NCBI RefSeq assembly: GCF_039555335.1
Contig: NC_092629.1
Span: forward strand, 5,503,432 to 5,567,431
DNA length: 64,000 nt
Direction of reading: 5' to 3'
From: Amphiura filiformis
Lineage: Eukaryota > Echinodermata > Ophiuroidea > Amphilepidida > Amphiuridae
Position numbers and translations under genes: made by a program. Positions within the stretch are counted from its first letter, which is position 1. Every line of letters starts with the position of its first letter. The notes below the pieces were generated by a model. It was not told where the DNA came from and did not search any database. It saw only the letters and a list, made by a program, of their open reading frames with translations. This document shows positions 2,231 to 64,000 of this stretch, in pieces.

Positions 2231-3027
2231 AAAAAGTCTGTATACTGCTTTATAAGGAATCATTCCCCGGTCATCGTCCACAAATTGTGTTTCTTAAATT
2301 TCATTGTGATGTTTATTTTGCATATATTTGTGGCAATGGAGAGTTGGTTTAAGCCGAGCTCCGTTTACCATTCATCACTTGTGAGACACTTTAGAGGACA
2401 TCTTCAAAATAAAAGTAGTCGCTAAGTGGCGAATAAAAACCGACAATTATAGATAACGGAACGAGATGAAATAACGTTTGTCACAAGTGCCGGTAGATGA
2501 CATGTGTTGTGTGTATTTGTGTTTATATCCGGGGTGCCAACATTTTTTAATAGTGATGTGAACTGTGACGTTAAGATTTAACATTATTAAGGGTGAAATG
2601 ATTCAAATGAAGGGAAGGCATACTTGCCAGCTACAAGTAGAAATCTAACGCCGTTTTTTAGCCTTGTATGCGAGTGGAGAGTAGCGCCACTATCGGTCGC
2701 ATGTGTGTCATGCCAGTTATATAGGAAGATGGTTTCACTGCTTTTTCTTTCTTTCAAGTTTCACAGTAGTATGTAGTGGCAAGTAATGAATTAGGCCCTA
2801 ATCATGGGGATAGTGACCCTCCACTCCTGAAATGTGTGGGGTGTGTATTTCAACTGGAATAGCCCATTATAATCACAATTTACCGTACCTTGATGAGGAC
2901 CAAGCAAAAATATTGAAATACAATCATATAGTCATGTAATAGATAGGGAATGGGGCGTATGAATTTCAATTGGAATATCTCAATCATCTACTGTTGATAG
3001 CATTAAATAAACCGCATAGTGCTGTAA
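2231..3027. other. Unassigned, with decayed ATTCC-family halves
   Basis: About 2835-2875 and 2945-2985 hold half copies of the ATTCC palindrome family (GTATTTCAACTGGAATAGCCC type). One stray 26-bp satellite unit lies at about 2986-3004. The rest shows no gene. Confidence 0.4.
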
Positions 3028-3515
3028 GCTATCTACTGTTGATAGCATGGTAAGCTATCTACTGCTGATAGCATGGTAAGCTATCTACTGTTGATAGCAT
3101 GGTAAGCTATCTACTGCTGATAGCATGGTAAGCTATCTACTGCTGATAGCATGGTAATCTATCTACTGCTGATAGCATGGTAAGCTATCTTCTGCTGATA
3201 GCACGGTAAGCTATCTACTGCTGATAGCATGGTAAGCTATCTACTGCTAATATAGCATATGGTATGCTATCTACTGCTGATAGCATGGTAAGCTATCTTC
3301 TGATGATATAGCATATGGTATGCTATCTACTGCTGATAGCATGGTAAGCTATCTACTGCTGATAGCATGGTAAGCCATCTACTGCTGATAGCATGGTAAG
3401 CTATCTACTGCTGATAGCATGGTAAGATATTTACTGCTGATAGCATGGTAAGATATTTACTGCTGATAGCATGGTAAGCTATCTACTGCTGATAGCATGG
3501 TAAGCTATCTACTGG
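3028..3515 (+). repeat. 26-bp satellite block 1, forward orientation
   Basis: About 19 tandem copies of a 26-bp unit. Each contains the dyad GCTATC-N7-GATAGC followed by ATGGTAA. Copies differ by one or two bases, and two longer variants insert an extra TATAGCATATG. Each unit holds two inverted WGATAR-type sites (AGATAG on one strand, TGATAG on the other). This block runs opposite to the other three. Confidence 0.95.
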
Positions 3516-3800
3516 TGAAAAGGGTCAATAATCAACCTGAGGATTGTTGGCCTTATTTGGTCAATAATTCAAACAAAGTATGCCTATGTCCACAAAAATG
3601 AAAATATTCCCTGGAATGGAGTGTCTAGATTAAACAAAACTCACAAAAATCCAATTTAGGATTTTTCCTATTTTCATTGTGCATGTGTTCCAAAATGGTT
3701 GTTTTTGCACCAAATCTGTGTTTATTATATTAACTTGAATAAATACTAAATGGTTTTCACCGTTTTTAACATTATTCGCCATTATGTACTTTGCTGGCAA
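3516..3800. other. Spacer between opposed satellite blocks
   Basis: About 285 bp of A+T-rich DNA separates the forward block from the reverse block. It has no coding signal. It may be the unique centre of an element whose arms are the satellite blocks. Confidence 0.5.
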
Positions 3801-5487
3801 TGCTATCAGCAGTAGATAGCTTACCATGCTATCACCAGTAGATAACTTACCTTGCTATCACCAGTAGATAACTTACCTTGCTATCAGCAGTAGATAGTTT
3901 ACCATGCTATCAGCAGTAGATAGCTTACCATGCTATCAGCAGTAGATAGCATACCATGCTATCCGCAGTAGGTAGCTTACCATGCTATCAGCAGTAGATA
4001 TCTTATTATGCTGTCAGCAGTAAGTAGATAGCATACCATGCTATCAGCAGTAGATATCTTACCATGCTATCCGCAGTAGGTAGCTTACCGTGCTATCAGC
4101 AGTAGATAACTTACCATGCTATCAGCAGGAGATAGCTTACCGTGATATCAGCAGTAGATAGCTTACCATGCTATCAGCAGTAGATAGCTTACCATGCTAT
4201 CAGCAGGAGATAGCTTACCATGCTATCAGCAGTAGATAGCTTACCATGCTATCAGCAGTAGATAGCTTACCATGCTATCAGCAGTAGATAGCTTACCATG
4301 CTATCAGCAGTAGATAGCTTACCATGCTATCAGCAGTAGATAGCTTACCATGCTATCAGCAGTAGATAGCTTACCATGCTATCAGCAGTAGATAGCTTAC
4401 TATGCTATCAGCAGTAGATAGCTTACCATGCTATCAGCAGTAGATAGCTTACCATGCTATCAGCAGTAGATAGCTTACCATGCTATCAGCAGTAGATAGC
4501 TTACCATGCTATCAGCAGTAGATAGCTTACCATGCTATCAGCAGTAGATAGCTTACCATGCTATCAGCAGTAGATAGCTTACCATGCTATCAGCAGTAGA
4601 TAGCTTACTATGCTATCAGCAGTAGATAGCTTACCATGCTATCAGCAGTAGATAGCTTACCATGCTATCAGCAGTAGATAGTTTACCATGCTATCAGCAG
4701 TAGATAGCTTACCATGCTATCAGCAGAAGATAGCTTACCATGCTATCAGCAGTAGATATCATACCATGCTATCAGTAGTAGATAACGTACCATGCTATCA
4801 GCAGTAGATAGCTTACCATGCTATCAGCAGGAGATGGCTTACTGTGCTATCAGCAGTAGATAGCTTACCATGCTATCAGCAGTAGATAGCTTACCATGCT
4901 ATCAGCAGTAGATAGCTTACCATGCTATCAGCAGTAGATAGCTTACCATGCTATCAGCAGTAGATAGCTTACCATGATATCAGCAGTAGATAGCTTACTA
5001 TGCTATCAGTAGTAGATATCTTATTATGCTGTCAGCAGTAAGTAGATAGCATACCATGCTATCAGCAGTAGATAGCATACCATGCTATCAGCAGTAGCAT
5101 CATGCTATCAGCAGTAGATGGCTTACCATGCTATCAGCAGTAGATAGCTTACCATAGTATAAGCAGTAGATAGTTTGCCATGCTGTCAGCAGTAGACACG
5201 TTTAGCTTACAATGCTATCATCAGTAGATGGCTTACCATGCTATCAGCAGTAGATAGCTTACCATGCTATCAGCAGTAGATAGCTTAACATGCTATCAGC
5301 AGTAGATAGCTTTACATGCTATCAGCAGTAGATAGCTTTACATGCTATCAGCAGCAGTTAGCTTATTATGCTATCAGCAGTATATAGCTTACCATGCTAT
5401 CAGTAGTAGATAACTTACCATGCTATCAGCAGTAGATAGCTTACCATGCTATCAGCAGTAGATAGCTTACCATGCTATCAGCAGTAG
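3801..5487 (-). repeat. 26-bp satellite block 2, reverse orientation
   Basis: About 65 tandem units of the 26-bp satellite in the reverse orientation. Long runs of nearly identical units (about 4200-4720) suggest recent homogenisation. Distinct variants, such as GTCAGCAGTAAGTAGATAGC (near 4013 and 5031) and a GACACGTTTAGC variant near 5200, recur in block 3, which marks a higher-order structure. Confidence 0.95.
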
Positions 5488-6608
5488 ACATAGGGCCTGC
5501 ACTTTGGCTCGTTTTTTGCAGGTTTACATGGTCCAATAATCACAAGATGACTGACATGTGGTAACAAAGGAAGCAGTCACTGCAATTTGATTATGTCCCA
5601 TATGATTGGCCATTCAAGACACCCATGTGAATATACTATAGCGGCCTTTTCAAAATATTATACCTGTTTGCTTGATTGCATTGACAATACCCGGGAACAA
5701 TAGGCCTACACACAGTATATGCTTTGGACAAACCTTTTACAATAAGCATGATAAGTGATGATGTGACCTCCAGATTTATACATCGTTCGTCTCGCACACT
5801 GACAACATTTGATTGAATGGACTGTAGGCTACTGCGTCGTGATTACGGTGAAGGACACTTTTCAAATCCTTTGTTTGGAGCCAATCAATAAAAGCATGCA
5901 GGGCCTCTATACCCATGCACAGTTTATCCCTTACATAACCTTCTGGCAAAGTTATGTAATGATCGGATTAATACTATATATATAGCAGTAGGTAAAAACA
6001 AGTTTTGAATAATCCGCGCTACAAAGTCCCATTCAGTGATCCCAGCGATTATGTTTTGCCTTAGACACACGGCTTTCGGCTGAACCACTGCACTAGCAAG
6101 CTTTGTTAGCACATCTATGACAATGACGAAAGGTACAAAATCAGCCATATAAGGCATTTAGATAGCAGAAGACACCAAATGACCAAATTGGTGTTTTATG
6201 ACCTTTGACATTCTTTTGTGGCGAGTGACATGGTCTTTCAATTCACGCCGAGTGTCCTTGACAGGTTTGACTATGCTTCAGTGGTCATGAAAGAATTCAA
6301 AAGATAACCTCTGCCCCAATAATCCCAAGCAATTGTCTGAAACTGCTCCTCGGATCATAAGAACTCAGTCCTCAAATGATAGTCATAGTAATGTCCAAAA
6401 TATAAAAATTACTGACTATCATTGAAGACCGAGTTCCGCAGTCTAGTATCCAAAATCTGAATTTTGATGATTTTTACGATCGTCGGGATGAAAAAAATCA
6501 AAAAATCACTGAATATTCCTTTAGTTCCCCTCTCCTTACCCTGGCAATATAAATCAAAGAAAAATAAATAAAACAAGAAAAGAAAAAAAAAAGACAAAGA
6601 AAATAAAC
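5488..6608 (-). repeat. Composite repeat, left copy
   Basis: Most of this stretch is the reverse complement of 8555-8756 plus 10109-11206. Examples are GGGCCTGCACTTTGGCTCG at the satellite edge, the CACCAAAT...GACATTCTTTTGTGGCGAGT segment (6160-6230) and the 6410-6605 segment. The stretch around 5790-5910 (with GATTACGGTGAAGGACAC) instead matches 10800-10930 in the same orientation, so one inner piece has flipped. It contains the uninterrupted target of the mariner-like element near 6417. No gene. Confidence 0.8.
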
Positions 6609-11207: not shown

Positions 11208-13049
11208 TGATAGCTTACTATGCTATCAGCATTAGATAGCTTACCATGCTATCAGCAGTAGATAGCTTACCATGCTATCAGCAGTAGATAGCTTACCATG
11301 CTATCAGCAGGAGATAGCTTACCATGCTATCAGCAGTAGATAGCTAACCGTGCTATCAGCAGTAGATAGCATACCATGCTATCAGCAGTAGATAGCTTAC
11401 CATAGTATAAGCAGTAGATAGTTTGCCATGCTGTCAGCAGTAGACACGTTTAGCTTACAATGCTATCATCAGTAGATGGCTTACCATGCTATCAGCAGTA
11501 GATAGCTTACCATGCTATCAGCAGTAGATAGCTTAACATGCTATCAGCAGTAGATAGCTTTACATGCTATCAGCAGCAGTTAGCTTACCATGCTATCAGC
11601 AGTAGATAGCTTACCATGATATCAGCAGTAGATAGCTTACCATGCTATCAGCAGGAGATAGCTTACCATGCTATCAGCAGTAGATAGCTAACCGTGCTAT
11701 CAGCAGGAGATAGCTTACCATGCTATCAGCAGTAGATAGCTAACCGTGCTATCAGCAGTAGATAGCATACCATGATATCAGTAGTAGATAACGTACCATG
11801 CTATCAGCAGTAGATAGCTTACCATGCTATCAGCAGTAGATAGCTTACCATGCTATCAGCAGTAGATAGCTTACCATGCTATCAGCAGGAGATAGCTTAC
11901 CATGCTATCAGCAGTAGATAGCTAACCGTGCTATCAGCAGTAGATAGCATACCATGCTATCAGTAGTAGATAACGTACCATGCTATCAGCAGTAGATAGC
12001 TTACCATGCTATCAGCAGGAGATGGCTTACCGTGCTATCAGCAGTAGATAGCTTACCATGCTATCAGCAGTAGATAGCTTACCATGCTATCAGCAGTAGA
12101 TAGCTTACCATGCTATCAGCAGTAGATAGCTTACCATGATATCAGCAGTAGATAGCTTACTATGCTATCAGTAGTAGATATCTTATTATGCTGTCAGCAG
12201 TAAGTAGATAGCATACCATGCTATCAGCAGTAGATAGCATACCATGGTATCAGCAGTAGCATCATGCTATCAGCAGTAGATGGCTTACCATGCTATCAGC
12301 AGTAGATAGTTTACCATAGTATAAGCAGTAGATAGTTTGCCATGCTGTCAGCAGTAGACACGTTTAGCTTACAATGCTATCAGCAGTAGATAGCTTACCA
12401 TAGTATAAGCAGTAGATAGTTTGCCATGCTGTCAGCAGTAGACACGTTTAGCTTACAATGCTATCATCAGTAGATGGCTTACCATGCTATCAGCAGTAGA
12501 TAGCTTACCATGCTATCAGCAGTAGATAGCTTAACATGCTATCAGCAGTAGATAGCTTACCATGCTATCAGCAGCAGTTAGCTTATTATGCTATCAGCAG
12601 TAGATAGCTTACCATGCTATCAGTAGTAGATAACTTACCATGCTATCAGCAGTAGATATCTTACCATGCTATCAGCAGTAGATAGCTTACCATGTTATCA
12701 GCAGTAGATAGCTTACCATGCTATCAGCAGTAGATAGCTTACCATGCTACCAGCAGTAGATAGCTTACCATTCTATAGTATAGCTTACCATGCTGTCAGC
12801 AGTAGATAGCTTACTATGCTATCAGTAGTAGCTATCTTATTATGCTGTCAGCAGTAAGTAGATAGCATACCATGCTATCAGCAGTAGATAGCTCACCATG
12901 CTATCAGCAGGAGATAGCTTACCGTGCTAACAGCAGTAGATAGCTTACCATGCTATCAGCAGTAGATAGCTTAACATGCTATCAGCAGTAGATAGCATAC
13001 CATGCTATCAGCAGAGATCGCTTACCATGATATCAGCAGTAGATAGCTT
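11208..13049 (-). repeat. 26-bp satellite block 3, reverse orientation
   Basis: About 71 units in the same orientation as block 2. It contains repeated multi-unit modules. The set ending in GACACGTTTAGCTTACAATG occurs near 11400-11463, 12312-12377 and 12402-12466, and also near 5150-5217 in block 2. The GTCAGCAGTAAGTAGATAGC variant is at about 12193 and 12847. Confidence 0.95.
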
Positions 13050-13745
13050 CCCAGCAAACACAAAAACGTTTTAAAAACGTTTTAAATAAGTTATATTTTG
13101 GCTTTTGGTTTAGGTAAAAACGTTTTAATAACATTAAAATGTCGGGTTATATAAAGGTCATGGTAACGTTTTAAAACGTTTTGTATGAAAACACACTACA
13201 ACACTATTTTTTAAATGTTTTCAAAAAATGTTATTTTAAACTATTTTTGCAAACATTTTTGCCAAATATTTTGTCAATACTTAAATAACATTATGTTAAA
13301 ATATTTGAACCCAGCAAACGCAGAAATGTTCTTAAAATGTTATTTTCAAAACCTTTTAATAACATTTAAATGTCGGGTTATATATATAAAGGTCATGAAA
13401 ACGTTTTTAAACGTTATTGAAAATATTTTGGGCAAACATTTTTTGCAAAATATTTTTCAACCCCAAAATAACATTCTGTTTAGAATGTTTTGTATCACGT
13501 TTTCAAGAATGTTTTTGGAATGTTATTAAAACGTTTTTATAACCTTTATATAACCCGACATTTAAACCTTTTCTGTAAAATATTTTTGTTTGCTGAGCAG
13601 TAGATTATCAAAAAATGTTTTTTCAGGTTATGAAAACGTTTTATACTCTTAATATACCCTTTATATAACCCGACATTTAAACGTTTTCTGACAACCTTTT
13701 ATAACCTTTTGCGAATGATGTCGAAAACGTTTTGTGTTTGCTGGG
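13050..13745. mobile_element. AACGTTTT foldback element inserted in the satellite
   Basis: Ends CCCAGCAAACACAAAAACG and CGTTTTGTGTTTGCTGGG are inverted. The interior is rich in AACGTT and in inverted copies of TATAACCCGACATTTAAA. A second related copy is nested at about 13310-13596. The flanks join into a normal satellite unit if a TT is duplicated (AGCTT / TTACTATC). It has no coding capacity. Related pieces are at 6636-6835, 22915-23190 and 59440-59905. Confidence 0.8.
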
Positions 13746-13930
13746 TTACTATCAGTAGTAGATATCTTATTATGCTGTCAGCAGTAAGTAGATGGCATAC
13801 CATGCTATCAGCAGTAGATAGCTTACTATGCTATCAGCAGTAGATAGCTTACCATGCTAATAGCAGTAGATAGCTTACCATGCTATCAGCAGCAGCTAGC
13901 TTATTATGCTATCAGTAGTAGACTAGACAG
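13746..13930 (-). repeat. 26-bp satellite block 4
   Basis: About seven units, the continuation of block 3 beyond the inserted foldback element. It includes the GTCAGCAGTAAGTAGAT variant near 13777. Confidence 0.9.
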
Positions 13931-19767: not shown

Positions 19768-21296
19768 AGAATCAGAATCAGAATCAGAATCAGAATTTAT
19801 TGACATTCACCATATAACAGGTATGGTCAAAATACAAGACAACACTAAACTACAACTAACACAATTTTTAAAATTACTATTATAAACTAGCACAATAATA
19901 CTGTAACACTGAAAACTAATTAATCAATTTATTGATGATCGTAGATCAAATGCAGATTTAACATATTACACTTACACTTACACTTACAGGATTGATGGGA
20001 TTAATTATAGGTTTAGGCCTTTCAGTACCCCATATCCATTTTCTTTCCAGTGCTGATCAATCTTTCCTTTAAACTGATTTGTAGTATTAACTCCAACAAC
20101 ATCTTCAGGAAGGTTATTCCACACATCTACCACTCGCTGGGAGAAGAAGAACTTCCTCAAATCCAAACCTTTCTTCAGCTGCCTTTTGAAGAGTTTGAAT
20201 TTGTGACCCCTGGTGCCTGTGTTATGAGACATGGTGAAAAGCTGATCTGGGTGTATATCTTCCAAGCCGTTGAGAATTTTGAAGACCTCGATCAAGTCAC
20301 CTCTCAGTCGCCTGATCTCCAAGGGATACAGGTTCAGTTCTTCAAGTCTTTCTTGGTAGGGCTTCTCCCTCAGGCTTGGAACCAGTTTGGTAGCTCTTCT
20401 TTGGATCTTCTCAATGGCTTTGATGTCTTTTACCAGGTAGGGGTTCCATGCCTGCACACAGTATTCTACGTGTGGGCGAATGTATGCCTTATACAAGATA
20501 GGGAAGCTCTCCTTGTCAATGTGCTTGAAAGTTCTCTTAATAATCCTCAGGCTAGTCATAGCTTTGTTGGCTGCCTTTGTGCATTGCAGACTTGGTGTGC
20601 AGTCGTCTGTAATGTATACACCTAGATCTTTCTCCTCTTTAGCTGTCATGATTTCTTCTTCCCCTAGAACATAGCTTCTCTCATTGTTGTTGATTCCCAT
20701 GTGCATGCACTTGCATTTGGAGGCATTAAACCGGAGGAGCCACGTATCTGACCAATCTTTGAGATGGTTTAGGTCTTCCTGGATATCATCACCTCCTTTA
20801 GAGCTGTTCTTCTGGACCCTGTTGTAAAGCTTTGTGTCATCAGCAAACATCTTTGTTTTGGACGATACCACTTCTGGCAGATCATTGACATACAGGACGA
20901 AAAGGATTGGTCCCAATACTGAGCCCTGCGGTACGCCGCTTAGGACATCAGCCCACTCTGACGGTGCAAGCCTTTCCTTACTCCAACTTGTTGTTTCCTG
21001 TCTTGTAGGAAAGCTGCAATCCATTCAAGGATTTTGCCGGAGATACCATAGGCTCTCAGCTTTGACAAAAGCCTTTTGTGAGGGACTGTGTCAAAGGCTT
21101 TTGAGTAATCAAGGTATATAACATCAACTCCAAATCCTTCATCTAAGCTGTCTGTCACATCTTCTAAGGTGGTGAGCAAATTAGACATGCATGATCTTCC
21201 ACTGGTGAACCCATGTTGATCCTCTGAAAGAAGGTTGTTCTGGTTTACATGCTTGAGTATAGCATCCCTCAGTAGTGACTCCATGATCTTGCAGGG
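19768..21296 (-). mobile_element. 5'-truncated CR1/L2-like LINE
   Basis: The element reads right to left, from the middle of the reverse transcriptase to a 3' untranslated region that ends in a short (ATTCTG)n tail at about 19770-19797. A (TGTAAG)n run lies near 19967-19988. Short repeated 3' tails instead of poly(A) are typical of CR1/L2-type LINEs. The 5' break at about 21296 joins directly to coding sequence of another LINE, so this copy is nested in it. Confidence 0.85.
20005..21284 (-). pseudogene. LINE reverse transcriptase, frameshifted
   Basis: RNA-directed DNA polymerase of the non-LTR retrotransposon. The first frame (21284-20940) has the palm motif with LDYSKAFDTVPH, holding the first catalytic Asp. 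The second frame (up to 20005) has GVPQGSVLGPILFVLYVNDL, then FADDTKLY with the catalytic Asp pair, then LRFNASKCKCMHMG, and a long C-terminal part typical of CR1/L2 elements (YIRPHVEYCVQAWNPYL, VVDVWNNLPEDVV). A single-base frameshift lies near 20961-20978, between the finger/palm region and GVPQGS. The N-terminal endonuclease is missing because of 5' truncation. The C-terminal frame is 339 codons long with no stop, so the copy is fairly young. Confidence 0.9.
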
Positions 21297-21852
21297 TAAT
21301 TAGCAACTACATGAACTGTATCATGATCGTTAGCACTCATAATTAAATGAAATTTGTTATTAACAAACATTGAATTGAAATCAAATATATCACTAAATTT
21401 ATCAAACAAATTACCACGCAAGTCATTATAAAGCGAACAACGCATAACAAAATGGAATTCATCTTCAACCGTGTGAAAAAAAAAAAAAAAAGTACAAAGA
21501 CGATTTTCAGGAGGAATTTTTGGTGAGGAATAACGGCCCTTTTCAATCATGAGTTGATGAGCGCTGATACGAAGTTTACAAAAAGCAGATCTTGCAGAGC
21601 GGTTCAAAAGCATAACATAATTCTCCATTGAAAATGTATCTTTGAACTGACAGTATGTTTGCAATTTAGGCGAGTGATTTAACCATAAGTTATCATACGT
21701 TGCTTTTAAACAAGAAACAATCACCGAATCAAAGTTATTCTTAGAAATAAGAATAGGTTTGTACCATATATCTTCTTTTTTAAGCAATCCCAAAATATTT
21801 TTAATTCCAGTAGACCAAGAAAATGACTCAATACTACATATAATAACTATTA
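21297..21852 (-). pseudogene. C-terminal end of a second LINE (outer host element)
   Basis: In frame from about 21852 (CSIESFSWSTGIKNILGLLK), through KLRISAHQLMIEKGRY and PPENRLC, to VEDEFHFVMRCSLYNDLR. This arrangement resembles the Cys/His region after the reverse transcriptase in several LINE clades (R-x-C-x-x-C ... EDE-x-HF ... C). Here the segment after RLC is a phenylalanine run encoded by a 16-base A tract at 21476-21491, so the second Cys of the expected pair is missing. The frame is cut near residue VVANY by the inserted CR1/L2-like LINE. A stop near 21855 limits it upstream. Confidence 0.65.
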
Positions 21853-23733: not shown

Positions 23734-24215
23734 AAAAGTTGCCATTCCATTTGAAATTCATACTCCCTCTATGGAAGACTTGTACTTCAACACAGGAGCC
23801 TGCCCCCCAACTCAACTTCAAAGTTGGCAACCATGAGAGTTACCAAATCTTTCAAAGACCCCCTTTGCAATGATTTTTCATCAAATTTACCCCCCTTTTT
23901 CATACAAAATCAAGGACAAAATTTGGCTTTGGTAACTCTCATGGTTGCCAATTTTGGGTTGAGTTGGGGGGCTGGGCACAGGAGTGTGAATTTCAAATGA
24001 GGTTACCTGAACAAGTGACTCCATTTGAAAAACACACCCCCTGTGTGGGACATTAAGATCATGTCATCCATAGTGAGTATAGGGATTTCAACTGGAATGT
24101 CCCATTTTGGAGCAGACGACACTGAATGGGTGACTCCATTTGAAATTCACACTCCCTGTGTGTCAAGTCTTCCATAGGGGGTGTAGGGATTTCAACTGGA
24201 ATAGCCCAATTAGCA
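23734..24215. repeat. ATTCC-family copies in tandem, one interrupted
   Basis: Alternating TGAAATTCACACTCCCTGTG and its complement, ending TTTCAACTGGAATAGCCC near 24210. The first copy is split by the element at 23799-23976. Confidence 0.75.
23799..23976. mobile_element. 178-bp foldback MITE with 8-bp target duplication
   Basis: The arms GCCCCCCAACTCAA and TTGAGTTGGGGGGC extend inward through GGCAACCATGAGAGTTACC and its complement. CACAGGAG is duplicated at 23791-23798 and 23977-23984. Removing the element and one duplicate restores the usual ATTCC-family sequence (CACAGGAGTGTGAATTTCAA). Eight bases fit hAT, though the ends are not the usual CAG. Confidence 0.8.
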
Positions 24216-27014: not shown

Positions 27015-28100
27015 CGTGGTTCTTTGTAGCCCTGGGGCAATCTAGTTGGATATCCAAATTTCGCTGTTTGTGGTTCTTTGTAGCCCTGCAGGCAATCTAG
27101 TTGGATATCTCTATTGAGCGGCGGTTGTTGGCGGTCTTTCGCGGTTCGTGGTATTCCTTTATTCTTCAAGCCCTGTCCTCTATCGGGCTAATTTATTGTT
27201 TAAGCTTGTTGGATATCCATATTTCATGTGTGTGGTTCTTTTATTTCTTGGGCAATCTAGTTGGATATCCAAATTTCGCCGTTTGTGGTTCTTTTTTGTA
27301 GCCCTGCAGGCAATCTAGTTGGATATCTCTATTGAGCGGCGGTTGTTGGAGGTCTTTCGCGGTTCGTGGTTATAATTTTCCTTATCCTTCAAGCCTTGCC
27401 CTCTATCGAGGGCTAATTTATAGTAAAACTTGTTGGACATCCATATTTCGCGGTGTGTGGTTCTTTATAGCCCTGCGGGGCAATCTAGTTGGATATCCAA
27501 ATTTCGCGGTTTGTGGTTCTTTGTATCCCTGCGGGGCAATCTAGTTGGATATTTCTATTGAGCGGCAGTTGTTGGCGGTTTTTCACGGTTTTAATTTGTA
27601 GGATATCCATATTTCAAGATTTGTGGTTCCTGAGTCCTGCGGGGCAATCTAGCTTTCGCGGTGTGTGGTTCTTTATAGCCCTGCGGGGCAATCTAGTTGG
27701 ATATCCACATTTCGCGGTTTGTGGTTCTTTGTAGCCCTGCGGGGCAATCTAGTTGGATATTTCTATTGAGCGGCAGTTGTTGGCGGTTTAAATTTGTAGG
27801 ATATCCATATTTCGCGGTGTGTGGTTCTTTATAGCCTAGTTGGATATCCAAATTTCGCGGTTTGTTGTTCTTTGTAGCCCTGCGGGGCAATATGGTTGAA
27901 TATTTCTATTGAGCGCCAGTGTTTCTATTGAGCGCGGTTTGTGGTTTTAATTTGTAGGATATCCATATTTCAAGATTTGTGGTTCCTGAGTCCTGCTGGG
28001 CAATCTAGCTGGATATCCAAATTTCGCGGTTTGTGGTTCTTTGTAGCCCTGCGGGGCAATCTAGTTGGATATCCCTATTGAGCGGCGGTTGTCGGCGGTC
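27015..28100 (+). repeat. Composite minisatellite, unit about 56 bp
   Basis: Repeated modules: GTTGGATATCCAAATTTCGC, GGTTTGTGGTTCTTTGTAG, CCCTGCGGGGCAATCTA. A second, longer module with TCTATTGAGCGGCGGTTGTT alternates with it, giving a higher-order pattern. GATATC recurs in nearly every unit. Several 60-80 codon frames here are products of the repeat. Confidence 0.9.
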
Positions 28101-28174
28101 TTTTGAGATTTAATTTTCCCTTTAATTTCGGGTGCCCCCTCCTCCACATCCCGAGGATGCTTTTCAATAATTTA

Positions 28175-42704: not shown

Positions 42705-43312
42705 TAGGTCTATTGCCATTTGGTCTAATACCATTTTGTCTAATTCCCGTTTAGTCTATATTCAATTGGTCTATTACCAGAAAGGCTAATTGCCACTTAG
42801 TCTAATAATCATATAGTCTAATGTCCATTTAGTCTAACATTGTTTGGTCTAATAACCGGTATGTCTACTAACCATATAGTATAATAACCATTTGGTCTAA
42901 TATTTCTTTAATAACCATTTGGTCTAATAACCGTTTGGTCTAATAACTGTTAGGTCTAATACTCGTATGGTCTAATAACCAGTTAGTCTAATACCATTTC
43001 GTCTATTTATTAATAAACTAAATGCCTGTAAGACTAAATGGTGTGTAGACCAAATGGGTATTAGACCAAATCGCTATTAGACTAATTGGTTATAGACCAA
43101 ATGAGTATTAGACTAAATGGTTGTTAGACCAAATGGCTTTAGACTTATTGGTTATTAGACTAAATGGTTATCGGACCAAATGGTTATCGGACCAAATGGT
43201 TAAAGGACCAAATGATTATTGGACGTAGTGGATATAGACCTAATGGGTTTAGACGAAATGGATGTAGACGAAATGGATATTAGACCAAATGGTATTAGAC
43301 CAAATGGCAAAT
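42705..43312. repeat. Head-to-head inverted minisatellite
   Basis: About 18 copies of CATTTGGTCTAATAAC-type units read forward to about 43010. About as many of the complement (GTTATTAGACCAAATG type) follow to 43312. The whole can fold into a hairpin of about 300 bp. Units are 16-18 bp and diverged. Confidence 0.9.
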
Positions 43313-50260: not shown

Positions 50261-50547
50261 TCATCTGTGAGGTCAAATTTGGGCCAAAATGCCATTTTTG
50301 GCCCAAAATCCCCAAAACAACGGTTTTTGGCCAACTTCTTTTTCGTGCATCCTAACAAAAAAATTCTTTTTTTATTAATTTTTAAAAACGAGATCAAAAT
50401 ATCTAGGACCTGTTTTTTTCATTTTTTTGAATTTTGACCAATTTCACCAAAAATATTTGAAATTTGGGCCAAAATCTGGCTTTTTATGATTTTTTTGAAA
50501 AATCAGCATTTTTTGACCATTTTTGGTGCAAATTTCTCAAAGAAGTA
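50261..50547. other. Low-complexity T- and TTTGGCC-rich stretch
   Basis: Short words such as TTTTTGGCC and its complement alternate. No gene. Confidence 0.45.
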
Positions 50548-51601
50548 TGAAATAGTTATCTACTACTGATATCATTATTGATGAAGTAGCTATCTACTGC
50601 TGATATCAGTATCGATAGAGTAATTATCTACAGTTGATATCAGTGTTGATGAAGTATCTATCTTGATGAAGTAGGTATCTACTGCTGATATCAATATTGA
50701 TGAAACAGCTATCTACAGCTGATAACAGCATTGATGAAGTAGTTATCTACTGCTGATATCAGTATTGATAAAGTAGATATCTACTGCTGATAACAACATT
50801 GAAGAAGTAGCTATCTACTGCTGATATCAGTATTGGTGAAGTTGCTGATATCAATATTGATAAAGTAGCTATCTACTGCTGATAACAACATTGATGAAGT
50901 AGCTATCTACTACTGATATCAGTATTGATGGAGTAGCTATCTACTGCTGATAACAGCATTGATGAGGTAGCTTTCTACAGCTGATAACAGCATTGATGAG
51001 GTAGCTATCTACTGCTGATATCAGTATTGATGAAGTAGCTATCTACAGCTGATAACAGCATTGATGAGGTAGCTATCTACTGCTGATATCAGTATTGATG
51101 AAGTAGCTATCTACTGCTGATAACATCATTGATGAAGCAGCTATCTACTATTGATATCAGTATTAATGAAGTAGATATTTACAACTGATATAGGTATTGA
51201 TGAAGTAGCTATCTGCTGTTGAAATAAGTGTTGACGAAGTAGCTATCTTCTGCTGATATCATTATTGATGACGTAGCTATCTACTGCTGATATCAGTATC
51301 GATAGAGTAACTATCTACAGCTGATATCAGTGTTGATGAAGTATCGATCTTGATGTAGGTATCTACTGCTGATATTGAGTTTATTGACAAAAAAATTGCT
51401 CATATCCTTTTGTTTCTTACTGTTTTTAACAGTAAGAAACCATCTCCTCCTGATATCTGTATTGATGAAGTAGCTATCTATTGCTGATATCATTGGCGAT
51501 GAAGTAGCTATCTACTGCTGATATCAGTGGTGATGAAGTAGCTATATACTGCTGATATCGTATTGATGAAGTAGCTATCTACTGTTGATATCAGTATTGA
51601 T
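50548..51601 (+). repeat. 34-bp satellite, left block
   Basis: About 31 units containing CTATCTACTGCTGATATCAG followed by TATTGATGAAGTAG. The core CTATCTACTGCTGATA is the same as in the 26-bp satellite at 3-14 kb. A non-satellite insert at about 51374-51440 (GAGTTTATTGACAAAAAAAT, then a TTTCTTACTGTT hairpin) resembles sequence just past the right block at 53800-53838. Confidence 0.95.
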
Positions 51602-51674
51602 TGTGATGTGCCCTGAGTAATTTAATTTGATGATTTATCTTTGTTTACAAAGTTACATGAGTGATGACATTTTG

Positions 51675-51865
51675 GGGGAATTCCCCTCTCAAAGTGAGCA
51701 AAACAAGTTGAATCATATCTAATTTGGAATATTTGGAAATCCCCTCAGGAAGTGATGTAATGGGATTTCCCCTCAGGAAGTGATGTAATGAGAAAGGTGA
51801 ATGTTAATTTTATAATTAAGGCTTGGGGAATTCCCACAATTGGCTATTAATACTTGGGATTTCCC
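51675..51865 (+). promoter_or_regulatory. Cluster of five kB-type sites in the LTR U3
   Basis: Five exact kB-like decamers: GGGAATTCCC (51676-51685, inside palindromic GGGGAATTCCCC), GGAAATCCCC (51735-51744), GGGATTTCCC (51762-51771), GGGAATTCCC (51826-51835) and GGGATTTCCC (51856-51865). Two of them are each followed by a copy of CCTCAGGAAGTGATGTAATG, with an ETS-type AGGAAGT and an ATF/C/EBP-like TGATGTAAT. The last kB site ends ten bases before the TATA box. Confidence 0.7.
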
Positions 51866-51874
51866 AGGGCCTGA

Positions 51875-51882
51875 TATATAAG
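51875..51882 (+). promoter_or_regulatory. TATA box of the solo LTR
   Basis: TATATAAG, just downstream of the last kB site. Transcription would start about 25-30 bases further on. Confidence 0.7.
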
Positions 51883-52547
51883 AAAAGGTAAACATATTTC
51901 TTCACAGTTTATAGTGTTGATCTGGGCTAGCTAGCTAATATGCTTACAGTCCAATCCCTTCAAAGAAAGGAAATTGCAAACCAGAAATATTTTATGTAGT
52001 CAAAGTACTACTATTTGCCAGTGTTGTCGGAGAAGATCTAGAATACGCCAAAGAACGTACTTCTTCCAAGAAAGGAAAATATATTCTTCTGTCGACTTGC
52101 TGAAGTCTGGTGTTTTGATTCAACGCAACTGTCAATACAAGTGGGGACAACTGCATCGCAGTCCTGCTTCCTGAAGATATTGTGTGAAAGGTGGAAATAG
52201 CACCAAGTTGGGAGAAATCAGCGCAAGGAGTTGAGTTTGGAGCAAGCAGCGCAAGGAGTTAAGTTTGGAGGAGAAAGCAACGCAAGGAGAAAGCAACGCC
52301 ATTTTTGTGTGAGGATTTCATACGCAAGGATATTCATAAACTCAAGTGTTCACTGGACTTAGCTGATTTTCGCAGGACAAGTGAATAAGGATATATTACA
52401 TCAGTCGTCCAGAACATTGCAGGAACTTTATGATCGCCAAGAAGAAGAATGCTGGCTAAGTACAAACTAGATAAAGAGTGATTATATTTGATTAGTGTAT
52501 ATGTGCATTTGTTGTCATTATATTGTACCAAACAAAACTTGCTTTCA

Positions 52548-52553
52548 ATTAAA
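52548..52553 (+). terminator. Polyadenylation signal of the solo LTR
   Basis: ATTAAA, followed by a GT- and T-rich stretch (TTGGTTTTTGTTAG), suitable for 3' end formation at the R/U5 border. Confidence 0.55.
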
Positions 52554-52662
52554 GACTTGGTTTTTGTTAGCTTAAACAAACAGTGTATTTGTGTTGTGCA
52601 TTCGTGTGAGTTCGGGTAAAAGGTGATTTTGGCCTTGAGTCAAGTACGACTCGTAACATGAT

Positions 52663-53698
52663 GAAGTAGCTATCTACTGTTGATATCAGTATTGTTGAAG
52701 TAGCTATCTACTGCTGATATCTGTATTGATGAAGTAGCTATCTACTGCAGATAGCAACATAGATGAAGTAGTTATCTACAGCTGATATCAGTATTGGTGA
52801 AGTAGCTATCACCTGCTGATAACAGTATTGATGAAGTAGCCATCTACTGCTTATATCAGTATTGATGAAGCAGCTATCTACAGCTGATAACAACATTGAT
52901 GAAGTAGCTATCTACTGCTGATATCAGTATTGATGAAGTAGCAATCTACTGCTAATAACAACATTGATAACGTAGCTATCTACTGCTGATATCAGTATTG
53001 GTGAAGTTGCTGATATCAATATTGATTAAGTAGCTATCTACTGCTGATAACAGCATTGATGAAGTAGCTATCTTCTACTGATATCAGTATTGACAGAGTA
53101 GCTATCTACTGCTGATATCAATATTGATGAAACAGCTATCTACAGCTGATAAGAGCATTGATGAAGTAGCTATCTACTGCTGATATCAATATTGATGAAG
53201 CAGCTATCTACATCTGATAACAGCATTGATGAAGTAGCTATCTACTGCTGATATCATTATTGATAAAGTAGCTATCTACTGATGATATCTGTATTGATGA
53301 AGTATCTATCTACTGATGATACTGATAACAGCATTGATGAAGTAGCTATCTTCTACTGATATCAGTATTGACGGAGTAGCTATCTACTGCTGATATCAAT
53401 ATTGATGAAACAGCTATCTACAGCTGATAACAGCATTGATAAAGTAGCTATCTACTGCTGATATCAATATTGATGAAGCAGCTATCTACAGCTGATAACA
53501 GCATTGATGAAGTAGCTATCTACTGCTGATATCATTATTGATGAAGTAGCTATCTACTGATGATATCCGTATTGATGAAGTAGCTATCTACTGATGATAT
53601 CCGTATTGATGAAGTAGCTATCTACTGCTGATATCAGTATTGATGAAGTATCTGGCTACTGCTGATCTCCATATTGATGAAGTAGCAATCGTAACATC
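52663..53698 (+). repeat. 34-bp satellite, right block
   Basis: About 30 more units continuing the same array beyond the LTR. Multi-unit modules repeat, for example the set ending AACAGCTATCTACAGCTGAT near 53130, 53410 and 53480. Confidence 0.95.
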
Positions 53699-63149: not shown

Positions 63150-63341
63150 GAAATGACTGGGGTTGATAGGGTATGCATGATGCATCAGTTACAGCAAGAA
63201 ATGACTGGGGCTGATAGGGTATGCATGATGCATCAGTTACAGCAAGAAATGACTGGGGCTGATAGGGTATGCATGATGCATCAGTTACAGCAAGAAATGA
63301 CTGGGGCTGATAGGGTATGCATGATGCATCAGTTACAGCAA
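63150..63341 (+). repeat. 48-bp minisatellite, four copies
   Basis: Units begin at 63150, 63198, 63246 and 63294, and differ by one base (GGTTGATAGG in the first, GGCTGATAGG in the rest). Each contains the palindromic GTATGCATGATGCATCA. Because 48 is a multiple of three, the array stays open on both strands. That is an arithmetic effect and not evidence of coding. Confidence 0.95.
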
Positions 63342-63424
63342 GAACGAACTGGGGAAAACACAGTGAAGACATGATCAGAGTGACAGTATAATCAAGGATT
63401 CTCGAGTAATAATTTACTATATGA

Positions 63425-63553: not shown

Positions 63554-63933
63554 TATCAAAATGCTTATTTTTGTTATTTCTACAGCTTTCGATGCTCACC
63601 TGAGACTTTTAGATCCATGTTATTTGTTATTTAACTTATTATATTATTAATTATTGTCACAAGTTAACAAATAACAAGTTATACAATGAATGTTATTATA
63701 TCTGAACAGACCAGTTGAGTCTTATTTTATTATTTTTTTTACTTATCAAAATGCTTATTTTTGTTATTTCTACAGCTTTCGATGCTCACCTGAGACTTTT
63801 AGATCCATGTTATTTGTTATTTAACTTATTATATTATTAATTATTGTCACAAGTTAACAAATAACAAGTTATACAATGAATGTTATTATATCTGAACAGA
63901 CCAGTTGAGTCTTATTTTATTATTTTTTTTTAC
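63554..63933 (+). repeat. 190-bp tandem duplication, nearly identical
   Basis: 63554-63743 is repeated at 63744-63933. I see no difference except one T in the terminal T run. Either a very recent duplication or an assembly artefact next to simple repeat. Confidence 0.92.
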
Positions 63934-64000
63934 TTATTTTATTTTATTTTCTAATTTTATTTTATTTTATTTTATTTTATTAATTTATTTTATTTTATTT
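63934..64000 (+). repeat. (TTTTA)n simple repeat to window end
   Basis: Imperfect TTTTA pentamers continue to the last base. Confidence 0.9.

Follow-up and report, generated by a model that had tools for sequence, protein, structure and literature searches.

The insertion at 51602–52658 of the window, the whole 64-kb stretch of DNA that was analysed, is a solo LTR. The best explanation of its sequence, which we favour with moderate confidence, is that its U3 carries an enhancer built of kB sites and that the parent element was most likely driven by Rel/NF-kB factors. The insertion and its surroundings comprise the following features:

51602–52658, plus strand: solo LTR, 1,057 bp, TGTGATG...CGTAACA
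51598–51601: TGAT target-site duplication, left copy
52659–52662: TGAT target-site duplication, right copy
50547–51601: 34-bp satellite block, left of the insertion
52659–53690: 34-bp satellite block, right of the insertion

The coordinates, the TG...CA ends and the TGAT on both sides are exactly those claimed in an earlier note on this DNA. The terminal inverted repeat of the LTR is short and imperfect (5 of 7 bases, by eye), and the target duplication is of 4 bp. Each of the flanking satellite blocks extends for ~1 kb. When the flanks are joined with one TGAT, the 34-bp satellite aligns without a gap at the junction; the single 1-base gap in the alignment falls elsewhere, in a neighbouring unit. 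The satellite is therefore continuous once the insertion and one TGAT are taken away, which places the insertion point and the target duplication beyond reasonable doubt.

A repeat listing of 51602–52658 showed only short repeats and no second long one, the closest internal counterpart of the initial 25 nt agreed at 16 of 25 positions, and no second copy of the LTR was found within the 64-kb window. With the internal region gone and one LTR remaining, the insertion is a solo LTR, presumably formed by recombination between two LTRs. The target duplication, the continuity of the satellite and the presence of signals in LTR order all bear out the earlier claim to this effect. As to superfamily (Ty3/gypsy, BEL/Pao, Copia or retrovirus), a 4-bp duplication alone is not decisive, and no internal sequence is present. 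The LTR gave no match by blastn against phages and plasmids, exact LTR patterns gave 0 matches in four scans of viral contigs, and one exact U3 pattern gave 0 matches in prokaryotic genome contigs. The satellite likewise gave 0 matches in prokaryotic genome contigs and viral contigs, and protein searches with two ORFs that occur by chance in the LTR found nothing. Since only viral, plasmid or prokaryotic sequences make up these collections, and the exact patterns were short, little can be read from an absence there.

Elsewhere in the window, a 26-bp satellite unit, GTAAGCTATCTACTGCTGATAGCATG, occurs in both orientations at 3024–5488 and 11209–13922. This unit and the 34-bp unit around the LTR (50547–53690) both contain AGCTATCTACTGCTGATA, and the shared core suggests that the two satellite families descend from one ancestor and that the period has changed.

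Within the LTR, candidate regulatory signals are arranged as follows:

51602–51903, plus strand: putative U3, containing all five kB-like sites
51675–51686, no strand assigned: kB1, GGGGAATTCCCC, a perfect 12-bp palindrome
51735–51744, no strand assigned: kB2, GGAAATCCCC
51762–51772, no strand assigned: kB3, GGGATTTCCCC
51825–51835, no strand assigned: kB4, GGGGAATTCCC
51856–51865, no strand assigned: kB5, GGGATTTCCC
51875–51882, plus strand: TATA box TATATAAG, the sole TATAWAWR on the plus strand of the LTR
51901–51906, plus strand: initiator-like TTCACA, with a predicted start at the A at 51904
52548–52553, plus strand: poly(A) signal ATTAAA, with GT-rich sequence next downstream

The five kB-like sites span 191 bp directly above the TATA box, in good agreement with the five in 190 bp noted earlier. 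The TATA box was also rightly placed just below the last site, although the spacing is 9 bases and not ten. When non-overlapping matches to GGRRNNYYCC are counted, the 64 kb has eight sites, of which the 304-bp U3 contains five; the remaining three are at 24094, 54950 and 60192. The corresponding Poisson probability is ~5e-12, calculated from an outside rate (0.0143 expected per 304 bp) that rests on just those three sites. The pattern GGGRNWYYCC has eight distinct, partly overlapping starts in the LTR, while 5,000 dinucleotide shuffles of the LTR gave a mean of 0.05 and a maximum of 2, none reaching eight; palindromic cores inflate such counts, eight overlapping starts corresponding to five separate sites. 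The stricter GGG-N4-CCC occurs four times in the LTR. With 5,000 shuffles in each case, this number was reached twice when the whole LTR was shuffled, once for 51602–51905 and four times for 51672–51870.

These nulls, shuffle and Poisson alike, treat the kB sites as independent and take no account of duplication, and the motif had been picked in the earlier note once the sequence had been inspected. As shown below, three of the sites belong to a duplicated module, so that the count of five and the Poisson value of 5e-12 overstate the evidence. If the module is counted once, three events remain, for which P(≥3) is ~5e-7 (calculated by hand at 0.0143 per 304 bp), or ~1e-4 over some 210 stretches of 304 bp. 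As a control, all 64 palindromes of the form XYZ-N4-z'y'x' were scanned, with hand-listed satellite ranges excluded, for clusters of at least four in 200 bp. Apart from the kB half-site, such clusters were formed by AAA and TTT, both near 13 kb, and by TGA, whose cluster at 63178 lies within a 48-bp tandem repeat. We conclude that the clustering of kB sites near the core promoter exceeds chance, with the caveat that duplication has contributed to it.

The sites kB1–kB3 each lie in a copy of one module, module A, whose layout is TGATGNNAT, kB, CTC and (AGG)AAGTGA:

51662–51700, plus strand: module A copy 1, with TGATGACAT, kB1, CTC and AAGTGA; repeat family D4, 64% to the reference
51730–51757, plus strand: module A copy 2, a 28-bp tandem repeat; the D4 reference (100%)
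51758–51785, plus strand: module A copy 3, a 28-bp tandem repeat; D4, 86% to the reference
51747–51753, plus strand: first AGGAAGT, ETS-like
51775–51781, plus strand: second AGGAAGT, ETS-like
51753–51761, plus strand: first TGATGTAAT, ATF/C-EBP-like
51781–51789, plus strand: second TGATGTAAT, ATF/C-EBP-like

We take AGGAAGT to be ETS-like and TGATGTAAT to be ATF/C-EBP-like. The two repeats of an ETS plus ATF-like block described previously are present, but the module in fact has three copies, kB1 included. Alignment of whole units placed all three pairs among kB1–kB3 above every one of 1,000 shuffles. Since whole-unit scores contain the kB core itself, the flanks were also aligned with the core removed. 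On the flanks alone, the kB1–kB3 and kB2–kB3 scores were reached in 0 of 2,000 shuffles each, while kB1–kB2 was marginal (119 of 2,000).

The whole units of kB4 and kB5 also align well (3 of 1,000 shuffles), and a second module made up of these two sites was considered. It was rejected: with the core removed, their flanks show no similarity beyond that of shuffled sequences, the score being reached in 1,364 of 2,000 shuffles. The whole unit of kB5 scores 26 against the unit of kB3 and 23 against that of kB4 by way of the shared core. Among the six other whole-unit pairs, kB3–kB5, kB2–kB5 and kB1–kB4 look good (0, 4 and 12 per 1,000 shuffles, respectively) and kB3–kB4, kB2–kB4 and kB1–kB5 do not (211, 463 and 485 per 1,000); judged by their flanks, none of these six pairs is persuasive, with 179 to 1,965 of 2,000 shuffles reaching the score. 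The flanks of kB4 thus have no detectable kinship with those of the other sites, and those of kB5 are at most weakly related to those of kB2 and kB3. One three-copy module, together with kB4 and kB5 in unrelated flanks, implies at least three separate gains of a kB site by one promoter. Retroviral U3 regions commonly contain duplicated enhancer units.

The predicted start, A 51904, is 29 nt downstream of the TATA box as counted from its initial T, and lies within a sequence, TTCACA, that we regard as initiator-like. The same combination at the same spacing accompanies 3 of the 31 plus-strand and 4 of the 35 minus-strand TATAWAWR matches in the 64 kb; because it recurs in this way, it is suggestive, not rare. 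The downstream ATTAAA reported in the earlier note is present at 52548 and is the only AATAAA or ATTAAA on the plus strand of the LTR. By consensus only, the TATA box, the initiator-like A and ATTAAA stand in the LTR order U3, R, U5. An R region from 51904 to the poly(A) signal at 52548 would be ~660 nt, which is long; transcription might therefore begin at a more downstream position, in which case the kB cluster would be an upstream enhancer rather than a promoter-proximal one.

The U3 also differs from the rest of the LTR in its CpG content: 51602–51905 (304 bp) has no CpG, as against 18 in 51906–52658, where 4.5 would be expected in the U3 at the LTR-wide rate. CpG-free stretches make up 524 of the 9,646 stretches of 304 bp in the window whose C × G product is at least that of the U3, so the absence of CpG from the U3 is mildly unusual. 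The GC content of the 64-kb window is 36.5%; that of Amphiura filiformis is given as 36.67% (PMC11310086).

These features suggest a working model. An LTR retrotransposon would have inserted into the 34-bp satellite array, duplicating TGAT, and the two LTRs of the integrated element would later have recombined to leave one. In the parent element, the U3 enhancer would have consisted of the five kB-like sites, three of them in the tandem module, beside a core promoter of TATA box and initiator. Rel/NF-kB dimers would bind the palindromic kB cores, probably joined by ETS and bZIP partners at the ETS-like and ATF/C-EBP-like sites of module A, and would activate transcription from the TATA promoter wherever a cell has Rel in its nucleus, for example in immune or wounded tissue. 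The earlier proposal that the promoter is used by Rel/NF-kB is upheld as far as the motif anatomy goes; the use itself is predicted from motifs. From the same anatomy we infer the identity of the factor, the start site, the inducibility of the promoter and the use of kB sites by the LTR family.

Published work is consistent with such a model. NF-kB proteins of four non-echinoderm holozoans are described as having highly similar binding preferences, with some variation, and the GGG-N4-CCC palindrome serves as an NF-kB consensus in that study (PMC13042239). In the brittle star A. filiformis, whose data would bear on this LTR if its host is such an animal, one cluster of early wound-response genes is reported to be enriched in NF-kB motifs around start sites, and 80 of 4,695 repeat families are reported to rise in the immune phase, with 23 of 4,695 rising in the proliferative phase (PMC11310086). 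We advance, tentatively and as a possibility that we consider doubtful, the wider proposal that the duplicated, CpG-free Rel enhancer of a brittle-star LTR family would tie its transcription to wound and immune signals, and that copies of the family would be found among the immune-phase repeats.

Alternative readings of the same features have to be weighed. The solo LTR being real, its GGG(A/T)4CCC sites could be read by another factor (e.g. HIVEP/Schnurri), or could serve expression in the germline or in development and not immunity. Sequence by itself does not tell apart factors with a common motif, HIVEP/Schnurri-type zinc-finger proteins recognise kB-like DNA, and inheritance of a transposon requires transcription in the germline. 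Nevertheless, the ETS-like and TGATGTAAT motifs repeat along with the kB core in module A, and immune-type composite enhancers combine such motifs, so that we regard a different reader as rather unlikely. The binding preference of Rel proteins, reported to differ little between unicellular holozoans and cnidarians, argues in the same direction (PMC13042239). Alternatively, the kB cluster could be incidental and of no regulatory importance: a small number of sites would have arisen by chance, and local duplication would have multiplied one of these. That three of the five sites fall in one repeated module, that palindromic cores inflate the counts and that the motif was chosen after looking are all in keeping with this. 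It is, however, quite improbable in view of the unrelated flanks of kB4 and kB5, which point to three or more gains beside the only plus-strand TATA box of the LTR, and of the presence of just three such sites outside the U3 in 64 kb.

As to the class of the insertion, neither a coding region nor a second LTR is present to confirm that it is an LTR, and it might in principle be something else, for example a composite repeat or a DNA transposon. The TG...CA ends, the 4-bp duplication and the order of TATA box, initiator and poly(A) signal make any such origin scarcely credible; a DNA transposon was rejected because a long terminal inverted repeat is absent from the inverted repeats listed for the insertion. 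The earlier note had also suggested that the solo copy could act as an inducible enhancer or promoter. For co-option by a host gene there is precedent in the Drosophila invader4 solo LTR at Bin1 (PMC8439047), and primate endogenous retroviruses and Alus are reported to have introduced NF-kB and IRF1 motifs (PMC12583588). The present copy, however, has satellite on either side, and the 118 ORFs of at least 68 aa scanned in the 64-kb window included no firmly identified host gene. The suggestion thus finds no support here, and co-option of this copy appears very improbable.

The Pfam scan of the 118 ORFs, from which hand-listed satellite ranges were excluded and in which shorter exons would be missed, gave RVT_1 in two ORFs and single matches to zf-CCCH_12 (4.9e-6), Innexin (0.00072), DUF6812 (0.001) and Toxin_16 (0.0012). 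When 30 of the 118 ORFs were rescanned singly, one RVT_1 match was located, and so was the DUF6812 match, which fell below its cut-off. The matches to zf-CCCH_12, Innexin and Toxin_16, to which no ORF was assigned among those 30, are not relied on. In the 64-kb window, no tRNA was found by ARAGORN and there was no Rfam match at gathering score. The reverse transcriptase is that of a LINE:

20008–21299, minus strand: LINE reverse transcriptase, in two overlapping open frames

Pfam assigns it to RVT_1, and we take the LINE to be CR1-like. Among the best 120 of 7,234 matches to the frame at 20008–21024 (minus strand), one protein matches at 95% over 58% of the query, and the closest organism-named protein is one of Amphiura filiformis, at 75% over 83%; the other organism-named proteins among the matches listed are from birds, at 40–47%. 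The host is thus likely, on indirect grounds, to be an invertebrate and an echinoderm, probably an ophiuroid, although a single LINE can mislead.

The window is also rich in tandem repeats. At 27016–28116 there are 56-bp repeats with GC-rich GCCCTGCGGGGCAAT, arranged in neighbouring diverged arrays. Within 42707–43307, an array of ~16-bp units of the GTCTAATAACCAT type has its apparent inverse complement, of the AGACTAAATGG type, ~25 bp past it, the two forming a large inverted satellite. A 48-bp unit at 63150–63344 (4.1 copies) and a 190-bp unit at 63554–63937 (2.0 copies) each show 99% matches.

LTRs regulated by NF-kB are already known. Production of HIV-1 is stimulated by binding of NF-kB to its LTR, and the ERVK LTR is described as having several NF-kB sites (PMC3598470, PMC10968565). 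The LTR described here shares the presence of kB sites with these vertebrate retroviral LTRs (HIV-1, HERV-K/ERVK) and has five of them, three in a repeated module. It differs in being probably invertebrate; the likeness is one of motif content, and its regulation by NF-kB is predicted. Neither GGGCGG nor GAAA-NN-GAAA has a match in 51602–52658. A review reports a putative NF-kB motif in the LTR of zebrafish EZR1, with which zebrafish Rel homologues interact (PMC10968565). An NF-kB-type motif in an LTR is common to both elements, although EZR1 has a vertebrate host and one putative motif described, and the likeness is by description only.

Among invertebrate elements, the Drosophila invader4 solo LTR FBti0019386 is reported to provide Bin1 with immune-factor sites and an infection-specific start (PMC8439047). 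Both it and the present insertion are solo LTRs with immune-factor motifs, which here are predicted only. The invader4 copy, of 347 bp, carries Caudal and DEAF-1 sites instead of kB sites and lies in the 5'UTR of the gene, whereas the LTR described here is embedded in satellite. Drosophila 1731 has a stress-inducible LTR that requires a short U3 sequence, according to titles cited in PMC2678813. A kB-like nature of that sequence was not found in the excerpts of this source, where kB motifs figure in HIV-1 titles of the reference list, and the likeness is again one of description only. The excerpts of PMC4246233 mention Rel factors, not kB sites in an LTR. As a weak indication, none of the papers listed from the mostly non-subscription literature was plainly concerned with clustered kB sites in the LTR of an invertebrate. 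While NF-kB-regulated LTRs as such are known from HIV-1, ERVK and EZR1, the LTR family described here may be new.

The anatomy of the U3 suggests that injury or infection may have activated the element. If so, it would be a clear counterpart, in an invertebrate, of the vertebrate retroviral LTRs that are driven through kB sites, and could explain part of the expression of repeats in the immune phase of brittle-star regeneration. Copies of such an LTR would be dispersed, ready-made immune enhancers and hence raw material for the regulation of host genes. If the family responds to Rel, invertebrate LTRs would have reached the solution adopted by vertebrate retroviruses, that of tapping immune signalling through multiple kB sites.
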